The position numbers and the translations under genes are program-made. 41,640 nt of DNA from a virus, in the IMG/VR virus record IMGVR_UViG_3300025117_000131, positions 1-41,640 of that record, one strand, 5' to 3'. This document shows positions 7,466-9,217 of the stretch, piece after piece (position 1 is the first letter of the stretch; each line of letters starts with the position of its first letter). The notes beneath the pieces are model-generated. The model did not search any database. It was not told the origin of the DNA and saw nothing but the letters and a program-made list of their open reading frames with translations.

Positions 7466-7621
7466 TTGCGCGGCGGCCGGGAAGGACCGGCTAGAGTCAA
7501 CGAGAAACTGTCTTAATCCCACCGACCTTTGAACGTTCCTGGGGAAGAGTGGGGCGATGTTCCCCGCCTTGATAGAAGCCGGTATCAAGCCCGGCCCGCG
7601 CTTTAAATTTTTAGGAGGTTT
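7466..7621 (+). promoter_or_regulatory. GC-rich structured leader of the cytosine methyltransferase gene
   Basis: No gene lies here. The region is closed by GCGCGG near 7468 pairing with CCGCGC near 7597, next to GCCGGG/CCCGGC. Inside are a local GCCGG/CCGGC hairpin near 7477-7493, a GGGG/CCCC hairpin near 7552-7565 and a 7-bp CTTGATA/TATCAAG hairpin near 7570-7590. It ends at the AGGAGG ribosome-binding site (7613-7618). The density of alternative pairings suggests a cis-regulatory RNA or independent RNA; it matches no riboswitch class I know. Confidence 0.5.
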
Positions 7622-9217
7622 ATGTGGATTATCCCGAAGTCACTTGTGTTGAGTGGTTCTACGGTTACGGTGGAAACGCTCTCGGACTTAAACGAGCAAT
7701 CCCAGGTCTGCGCGAAATCGCTAAGTGTGAGAGGGACGCCTTCGTCGTTGCGAACATGGTCAGCAAAATGGAAGCGGGACTCATGGACGCGGTTCCTGTC
7801 TGGACGGATTGTAAAACCTTCCCAATTGCAGAGTTTCACGGACTCGTGGACCTCTTTATTGCGTCCTATCCTTGCCAGGGGTTCAGCCACGCCGGTAAAA
7901 GACTCGGGGTCGAAGATGAACGCCACCTCTGGCCCTACTGCCGAAAGTGGATCCAAGGTGCAAGACCAGGAGCTGTTTGGCTCGAAAACGTCGAAGGACA
8001 CGTTTCGCTTGGACTCTCCACAGTCCTTGCCGACTTGGAAGAAGATGATTATACAGCGGCGTGGGGAATATTCAGCGCGTCTGAAGTCGGCGCGCCTCAC
8101 CAACGAAAAAGAGTGTTTATCCTGGCCTACGACCGCCGTAATGGACACGCTTGGCGGGCCTTACAAAACGGAATTAAAGGACGGGGCGTTCAGGAGTCAA
8201 CACAATCACAGCGATCCGAACAGCCCTTGGTACGGGGCGAGGTTGCGAGATGCGGTGAATGTTCCGGTTCAGAAGAACTGGCCCTCCGCAACAGTATCGG
8301 ACGTACACACGGACAATCTAAAGAGCAGTCAGCAGAAGCCCGGTTCGTTCCACAGCGTGACCCTGCCACAAGCGGACCGCTTGTGGCCCAGCAGCAACAG
8401 CAGGGATTGGAAGGACACGCCGGGGATGTCAACCACGCGAGATGGGAACCCCGAGGGGAGGATAGACCAGTTGCCGAGGGCGGTTTATGCGGAGTCAACC
8501 AGGTTGACTCCCGACTGTTCGGACAGGAGAAGCCAGAACAGCAAGCAACAAGGATTGAGCAATCAAATCAAGTCTGGCCTTCCCGCCCCGGAGTCAGCCA
8601 ATACGGATGGGAGCCGCCGAGAGTCGTGGGCAACGCCGAGAAGCGGAATGTCCGCGGGGAGCAAAGACGCGGTGTGGGAGCCGGGGAAGAAACCGACGTT
8701 GAATGGAAAGCCGATAACAACATCACTGACGGACCAAGTAAGGATAGTGTCATCGAAAGACTGCGGGAAGCGGGATATACTGTCGAGCCATGCGAACAAT
8801 GCCAAAAAGATGGAGATGACAGATACACCGTCTGTTTCTCCGACAACGGGTCCGGGGACTGTTGCTCCGTCGAAGGGATGCGGAGAATCTTGGGCGAGCC
8901 CGCACAGCAACTGCATGACGGGTCCGGGAGCGCAGGGCCGACAGGGCCGACAGGGCGGGAAGAACTTGCAGACGCAGGCGGGGAAACTCAATCCCCGTTG
9001 GGTAGAGACGCTAATGGGCTTGCCGCTGGGCTGGACCTGTCCCGATACACCGGCCTCAGTGATTCTGAACTGGCCGAAATTCGTGAATGGATGGAGAAGG
9101 GCACAAACCGAACCGACGAACTCCGCATGTGCGGAAACGGGGTTGTGCCAGCCACCGCCGAGCGTGCGTTCAGGGTCTTATACAAAGAACTCCAAGGAGC
9201 AAGATGAACTATTCTGA
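7622..9217 (+). CDS. Overlapping second-frame ORF across the methyltransferase gene, 531 aa
   Basis: An uninterrupted 531-codon frame starts at ATG 7622, two bases before the methyltransferase GTG (ATGTG), and ends at TGA 9217, ten bases past the methyltransferase stop. It contains motifs I recognise from a Ser/Thr-rich phage protein group: SWPTTAVMD near residue 164, LWPSSNSRDWKD near 254, and LNPRWVETLMGLPLGW near 455. The frame is open far longer than chance would allow. Translation would share AGGAGG 7613-7618, although its 3-base spacing is short. It may be a real protein, perhaps a methyltransferase partner, or a constrained shadow frame. The biochemical role is unknown. Confidence 0.5.
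   Translation: MWIIPKSLVLSGSTVTVETLSDLNEQSQVCAKSLSVRGTPSSLRTWSAKWKRDSWTRFLSGRIVKPSQLQSFTDSWTSLLRPILARGSATPVKDSGSKMNATSGPTAESGSKVQDQELFGSKTSKDTFRLDSPQSLPTWKKMIIQRRGEYSARLKSARLTNEKECLSWPTTAVMDTLGGPYKTELKDGAFRSQHNHSDPNSPWYGARLRDAVNVPVQKNWPSATVSDVHTDNLKSSQQKPGSFHSVTLPQADRLWPSSNSRDWKDTPGMSTTRDGNPEGRIDQLPRAVYAESTRLTPDCSDRRSQNSKQQGLSNQIKSGLPAPESANTDGSRRESWATPRSGMSAGSKDAVWEPGKKPTLNGKPITTSLTDQVRIVSSKDCGKRDILSSHANNAKKMEMTDTPSVSPTTGPGTVAPSKGCGESWASPHSNCMTGPGAQGRQGRQGGKNLQTQAGKLNPRWVETLMGLPLGWTCPDTPASVILNWPKFVNGWRRAQTEPTNSACAETGLCQPPPSVRSGSYTKNSKEQDELF
7624..9207 (+). CDS. DNA (cytosine-C5) methyltransferase, 527 aa
   Basis: It transfers a methyl group from SAM to cytosine C5 in DNA. Motif I is FYGYGG at residues 12-17, motif IV SYPCQGF with catalytic Cys84, motif VI ENV at 121-123, motif VIII QRKR at 160-163, and the closing motif X GNGVVP lies near 502. 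Between VIII and X is a long low-complexity Gln/Gly-rich stretch of about 300 residues that would hold the target-recognition region. GTG 7624 is five bases after AGGAGG. The protein is longer than the common 330-420 residues. Probable role: modifying phage DNA against host restriction. A second open frame overlaps its whole length. Confidence 0.92.
   Translation: MDYPEVTCVEWFYGYGGNALGLKRAIPGLREIAKCERDAFVVANMVSKMEAGLMDAVPVWTDCKTFPIAEFHGLVDLFIASYPCQGFSHAGKRLGVEDERHLWPYCRKWIQGARPGAVWLENVEGHVSLGLSTVLADLEEDDYTAAWGIFSASEVGAPHQRKRVFILAYDRRNGHAWRALQNGIKGRGVQESTQSQRSEQPLVRGEVARCGECSGSEELALRNSIGRTHGQSKEQSAEARFVPQRDPATSGPLVAQQQQQGLEGHAGDVNHARWEPRGEDRPVAEGGLCGVNQVDSRLFGQEKPEQQATRIEQSNQVWPSRPGVSQYGWEPPRVVGNAEKRNVRGEQRRGVGAGEETDVEWKADNNITDGPSKDSVIERLREAGYTVEPCEQCQKDGDDRYTVCFSDNGSGDCCSVEGMRRILGEPAQQLHDGSGSAGPTGPTGREELADAGGETQSPLGRDANGLAAGLDLSRYTGLSDSELAEIREWMEKGTNRTDELRMCGNGVVPATAERAFRVLYKELQGAR

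Follow-up and report, generated by a model that had tools for sequence, protein, structure and literature searches.

C5 cytosine methyltransferases of the phages SPbeta, SPR and phi3T are multispecific one-chain enzymes with several tandem recognition modules between motifs VIII and IX, and these modules are shuffled between phages. Other C5 methyltransferases consist of two polypeptides, including M.EcoHK31I and, like it, M.EaeI; the small chain of M.EcoHK31I was reportedly traced by Lee, Kam and Shaw in 1995 to an alternative frame inside the large gene. In M.EcoHK31I the large chain carries motifs I-VIII, motif X and a predicted TRD and the small chain motif IX alone, and in M.AquI both IX and X are located on the small chain (PMC3404938). 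A coding sequence hidden in a phage methylase was also described for the ShiLan element, an HNH homing endonuclease that occurs as a patchy mobile insertion (PMC11855218).

This article describes a methyltransferase locus in a virus record of 41,640 bases, which was analyzed at its full length and is referred to as the window. The locus is read here as a two-chain C5 cytosine methyltransferase whose subunit genes are superimposed in two frames, to which we assign a probability of about 0.84 on the evidence of sequence comparison. Like M.EcoHK31I, the window has motifs I-VIII and X on a large chain (alpha) and motif IX on a separate chain (beta) and, as is said of that enzyme, the same DNA encodes the second chain in another frame. 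Unlike in M.EcoHK31I, the two genes here overlap almost entirely and share their first bases as ATGTG, beta matches alpha in length, the pair belongs to a phage, and the probable recognition modules, variable in number, are conserved in the frame of beta, whereas the predicted TRD of M.EcoHK31I is on the large chain. Coextensive genes with overlapping starts, variable modules on beta and a wide spread among phages are the three points of difference within the M.EcoHK31I kind.

With the M.AquI type, represented by gp78/gp77 of mycobacteriophage Nyxis, the window shares two chains and a second chain holding the recognition region and IX; however, the beta chain of M.AquI also includes X and its genes are in tandem, while in the window X is on alpha and the genes are superimposed. 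An M.AquI-type combination of IX and X on one small chain was met only in locus L119, as an overlapping version. As in the SPbeta, SPR and phi3T enzymes, tandem candidate recognition modules shared between phages precede IX, but they are placed on a second chain in another frame instead of one chain and one frame. The nested 'g55 internal gene' of Paenibacillus phage Shelly (phrog_1008) has the same +1 offset, WPTP modules and the ending LNPEWVECLMGFPIGW; it differs from the window beta in starting about 60 codons inside alpha and in being shorter (234 aa). ShiLan resembles the window in that a second frame is hidden in a phage methylase gene, and differs in being a mobile insertion rather than a subunit, as beta putatively is. 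Literature searches in an open collection with few subscription journals found no paper on this phage architecture, parts of which may already be known to specialists.

Two coextensive reading frames

All features are on the plus strand. Frame B, the gene of the beta chain, extends over 7622-9217 (ATG at 7622, TGA at 9215-9217, 531 codons), and frame A, the gene of the alpha chain (C5 cytosine methyltransferase), over 7624-9207 (GTG at 7624, TGA at 9205-9207, 527 codons), so that A1 corresponds to B3, A2 to B1 and A3 to B2. The overlap comprises about 1.6 kb on the same strand and includes each gene at full length. A single AGGAGG Shine-Dalgarno sequence (7613-7618) is common to both starts, at 3 nt from the ATG and 5 nt from the GTG. 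The initial annotation had reported the two frames with these coordinates and lengths (531 and 527 aa), the starts overlapping as ATGTG behind one AGGAGG and the stops ten bases apart; inspection of the sequence confirmed each of these points. The ATG of a primase-like gene at 9204 overlaps the alpha stop as ATGA inside both methyltransferase frames, and thus three frames are used for a few bases (9204-9217).

The same annotation judged that an open frame of this length would hardly arise by chance, and this was borne out. With the alpha protein kept fixed, frame B was expected to contain a mean of 6.3 stops when the synonymous codons of A itself were permuted, and 15.6 when codon usage was taken from the rest of the window; a stop-free B was obtained in 0 of 20,000 synonymous shuffles of either kind. 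The equivalent relative frame of the 12 other large genes of the window contains 11-111 stops, and frame +2 of A contains 29. Permutation of invariant alignment columns over motifs I-VIII gave 38 expected stops in B versus the 0 present. A similarity score derived from column permutation (invariant columns, motifs I-VIII) was discarded, as it was not frame-specific and rose in the control frame too.

Relatives and selection on each frame

Relatives were collected by a search with B, which gave 33 viral loci, and by a profile search, which gave 456 viral contigs, 80 of which were kept. Bacterial genome contigs contributed four further loci, and for three of these the bacterium is named and of the Verrucomicrobia type (a Verrucomicrobia MAG, a Pedosphaera MAG and Geminisphaera colitermitum). 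Frames A and B were both present with the identical +1 offset in all 108 B-selected loci, 99 of which showed an overlap of at least 900 nt; the third frame of the 108 accumulates 2016 stops in 43,822 codons. The beta start is typically located 2, 5 or 8 nt upstream of the alpha start in most loci. Since this set had been selected by B, the search was repeated with only the N-terminal part of A. It had been reasoned beforehand that +1 stops common in homologous methyltransferases would speak against a second gene; instead, the +1 frame was open over nearly the whole gene in 80 of 80 loci found by alpha alone. The motif IX pattern occurred in frame A of 0 of these 80 relatives and in the +1 frame of most. 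As a control, 78 one-chain relatives of the Enterococcus phage EC99P2 methyltransferase were examined; their +1 frame carries 7-23 stops (mean 16).

An alpha chain lacking IX together with a +1 beta that ends in an LNP-type IX was found in C75C1, Shelly, R9.1, Haboob, BS-TP4, SEN5, BcepC6B, C72C1, ctNMl277, Zerg, Rhynn, LASTA, S9-5, KPN U2874, Yong-M2-251 and the E. coli phage Golestan. A similar +1 frame is present in Lc-Nu and Paisley, where its ending has diverged; phiJH1301-2 and EC99P2 are one-chain and do not share the alpha/beta layout. Similar +1 partners are distributed among phages of Paenibacillus, Mycobacterium, Salmonella, Klebsiella, E. coli, Lactobacillus and cyanobacteria, and the WPTP/LNPxWVEWLMG signature, which the initial annotation associated with phage proteins, is indeed widespread in phages. 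Only alpha is annotated in most phage records with this layout. Beta matches also lie under genes annotated as cytosine methyltransferases on plasmids of Salmonella, Citrobacter, Klebsiella and others. What is annotated as a DNA-cytosine methyltransferase gene in Stenotrophomonas phage SOVA965 (L205, 1489-1989) is a beta chain.

Selection was assessed by counting nucleotide differences by codon position in ungapped BLASTN pairs from 162 non-redundant loci; the pairs are non-independent and the intervals are therefore indicative. In the IX segment the divergence was.091 at B1,.035 at B2 and.372 at B3, giving a B3/B2 ratio of 10.8 (bootstrap 8.7-13.7) with the alpha wobble position nearly frozen; selection on the second frame, which had been proposed as something to look for, is seen here. 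About 100 bases after IX, in the X segment, the values were.070 at A1,.020 at A2 and.458 at A3 (A1/A3 0.15). Third-position divergence is thus that of B at IX and that of A at X, from which both frames are coding. The same was observed for the window alone, with B2.079 and B3.506 at IX and A2.150 and A3.654 at X. The module region is balanced between the frames (1.15, interval 1.01-1.27), and over motifs I-VIII frame A dominates (A1/A3 0.56, A third positions the fastest). In the one-chain control A1/A3 was 0.45 over motifs I-VIII and 0.22 at IX.

At matched divergence the N-terminal A1/A3 was 0.52-0.58 versus 0.36-0.51 in the one-chain control, so the extra constraint on the N-terminal third of beta is real but slight. 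Stronger evidence for the beta N-terminus is the absence of stops, 0 versus about 598 expected over 161 loci that were partly chosen for this open frame.

These data bear on the possibility that frame B is never made and is an open shadow that the methyltransferase casts through its codon composition and its conservation. It would agree with the A third positions being still the fastest over motifs I-VIII. Synonymous shuffles, however, always produce stops where B has none, one-chain methyltransferases are full of +1 stops, and alpha lacks its own motif IX in all 80 relatives; the B-coding evolution of the IX segment, with alpha wobble frozen, already contradicts a shadow frame, which we regard as extremely improbable. 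These sequence patterns strongly support the reading of both frames as genes.

Motifs and modules of the two chains

The Pfam DNA_methylase family matches alpha with E 1.3e-27 over residues 7-184 only. Motifs I-VIII (7642-8175) were placed by Pfam, HhaI chains and invariant columns, which locate PCQ at 7870-7878, ENV at 7984-7992 and the QxRxR motif, as QRKR, at 8101-8112. Motif X (GNxV) is found near the alpha C-terminus (LRMCGNGVVPATAERAF) and lies as NRTDELRMCGNGVVPATAERAF in frame A at 9106-9171, with an A-coding divergence signature. In the middle of the overlap (8575-8631) the alpha sequences of relatives share a conserved element, WPSRPGVSQYGWEPPRVV, with an A-frame identity of at most 82%. 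Of the defence models, the nearest to alpha (7624-9207) is DruM, the Druantia II cytosine methylase.

Motif IX is absent from the alpha chain and present in frame B, as KLNPRWVETLMGLPLGW at 8984-9034; frame A reads TQSPLGRDANGLAAGLDL from these bases. The initial annotation had noticed that SPLGRDANGL (A) and LNPRWVETLMG (B) are encoded by the same bases, which is correct, and had taken the former for a methyltransferase motif, which did not stand: the wobble position of A is nearly frozen there while B varies, and SPLGRDANGL behaves as a by-product of the frame-B motif IX. It had also placed SWPTT of the second frame on motif VIII; SWPTT does exist in B, just 3' of the bases for alpha motif VIII (QRKR).

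The beta chain starts with a region of about 167 aa (7622-8122) overprinted on alpha motifs I-VIII, for which helices were predicted with low confidence. It is followed by about five tandem modules of the W(P/A)TP type (8123-8983, delimited by an HMM of module plus IX), with starts near 8123, 8279, 8384, 8627 and 8891, which are probable target-recognition modules, and then by LNPRWVETLMGLPLGW, the motif IX; the chain ends in KLNPRWVETLMGLPLGW plus a short tail. The number of modules in relatives ranges from 1 to 10. The block profile of beta is in register with classical motif IX (RKLTPRECWRLQGFP), a short match of 15 columns with P 0.006. The HMM, built from the last module and IX, matches the VIII-to-X region of the one-chain Babsiella gp54 (iE 3.7e-7), as well as the AquI-like Nyxis gp77 and Getalong gp86. 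Babsiella gp54 contains motifs I-VIII, several LPTP modules, IX and X in a single frame, an order from which the modules would occupy the place of the target-recognition region of one-chain C5 enzymes.

Modules of the window, SEN5 and KPN U2874 recur in unrelated phages with 65-76% identity in B and 24-41% in A. Between the window module TDNLKSSQQKPGSFHSVTLPQA and its counterpart in Lacticaseibacillus phage R9.1 the identity is 67% in B and 34% in A; for a SEN5 module that recurs in viral contig L142 it is 76% and 34%, respectively. Because similarity in B served to select the pairs, the contrast with A is illustrative, the unbiased evidence being the codon-position divergence of the 162 loci. 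Sequence searches of Pfam, NCBIfam, PADLOC and PDB gave nothing credible for beta. AlphaFold models of beta from the window (27 sequences) and L142 (47 sequences) had pLDDT of 42 and 56, too low for use, and comparison of the L142 model with PDB folds returned one meaningless match (Z 2.9). Beta does match phrog_1008, labeled 'DNA methyltransferase', with E 7.6e-9 for the window, 8.2e-74 for Shelly and 4.8e-19 for L011. The last 30 positions of phrog_1008 match alpha motif X instead of beta, and some members of this family seem to combine IX and X in a single chain.

As beta holds the IX that alpha misses, together with probable target-recognition modules, the two chains most likely belong to one enzyme, with beta as its second subunit. 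The initial annotation had called the second protein unknown and possibly associated: the first term no longer applies, and an association as a subunit is likely. Beta could alternatively be made for another job, for example as an inhibitor, a regulator or an anti-restriction protein, with alpha acting alone. This would suit a protein that has no recognized Pfam fold. Yet alpha would then act without the IX usual in one-chain C5 enzymes while beta has it at the matching place, modules and IX are found inside the one-chain Babsiella gp54 and in the AquI-like second chain Nyxis gp77, and motif X moves between chains (L119); a separate function of beta is very unlikely.

It might also be thought that a single chain is synthesized by ribosomal frameshifting, the ribosome leaving A for B to read the modules and IX and returning to A for X. 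The succession of I-VIII (A), modules and IX (B) and X (A) is indeed the order of one-chain enzymes, which Babsiella gp54 displays in a single frame, and the distance between IX and X is about that of one-chain spacing. Such a product would require two efficient shifts and would have no need of a B frame open over I-VIII; A is open across the modules and IX, in most loci the start of B is a separate one, 2, 5 or 8 nt upstream of that of A, and two-chain enzymes are known that work without any shift. We consider this explanation improbable.

In the two-chain enzyme, alpha, with motifs I-VIII and X, would form the large, catalytic domain, most likely responsible for AdoMet binding and chemistry, and beta would complete the small domain with a variable number of tandem target-recognition modules and then IX. 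Ribosomes would start both chains at ATGTG behind the one Shine-Dalgarno, and alpha and beta would assemble into one complex. The modules would set the target sequence, several modules conferring several targets. The enzyme may methylate the phage's own DNA, most simply as protection from host restriction; no restriction enzyme was recognized among the neighboring proteins examined. A one-chain enzyme could have given rise to the arrangement if two frameshifts that compensate each other flanked its recognition region and IX and beta was then extended upstream; such an origin would explain the constant +1 offset.

In R9.1 the alpha sequence PEPSVGRVADGVPNRLDR is encoded by the same bases as LNPAWVEWLMGYPIGW in +1, and this relation between an alpha sequence and a +1 motif IX is also seen in C72C1, S9-5 and Zerg. 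PSVGRVADGVPNRxDR is a common C-terminal sequence of such annotated phage C5 enzymes. A large class of phage C5 methyltransferases, mostly annotated as complete single proteins, are probably overlapping-frame alpha/beta pairs with a modular, multi-target recognition chain hidden in +1, PSVGRVADGVPNRxDR then being the out-of-frame image of motif IX (LNPxWVEWLMGYPIGW). If so, many phage methyltransferases in databases, and some plasmid ones, would be half enzymes, cloning of the annotated frame without beta may fail, and the annotated protein would not reveal the DNA targets. As a same-strand overlap the locus is unusually long, and selection on each frame is readable in it segment by segment; X switching chains and swapped modules provide natural experiments already available, and modules could be paired with target sequences by methylome comparison.

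Loci with rearranged parts

In L119 (3484-5361) X has come to lie behind IX on beta through an indel, and only I-VIII remain on alpha. This locus is on a bacterial MAG contig and its beta, of 625 aa, has about nine modules, IX and X. In four loci (L019, L020, L025 and L052) a frameshift moved modules and IX to a third open frame and left X after the beta N-terminus, so that motifs I-VIII, the beta N-terminus fused to X, and the modules with IX constitute three open frames. In L003 (112-1914) and L021 (749-2647) there is nothing more of beta beyond motif IX (NPRWVCTLMNVPVFWVKP), and an additional stretch of about 200 aa precedes motif X in alpha. Two more loci, L027 and L032, have an alpha stop 3' of motif VIII with beta intact, and with L019, L020, L025 and L052 they make up the few loci in which one frame is broken. 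Parts that switch chains yet stay open would be expected if they are joined in one enzyme, although some of the rearranged loci could instead reflect decay or assembly error.

Other arrangements were observed in two phages. In Gordonia phage Getalong (L212, 1496-2586) the methylase gp85 has a LAGLIDADG-like +1 reading at the place of motif VIII and the modules, and IX and X are in gp86. In Mycobacterium phage Papez (L207, 1577-2404) a module, LLPTPLARDSKG, is located in +1 and IX and X are in the main frame.
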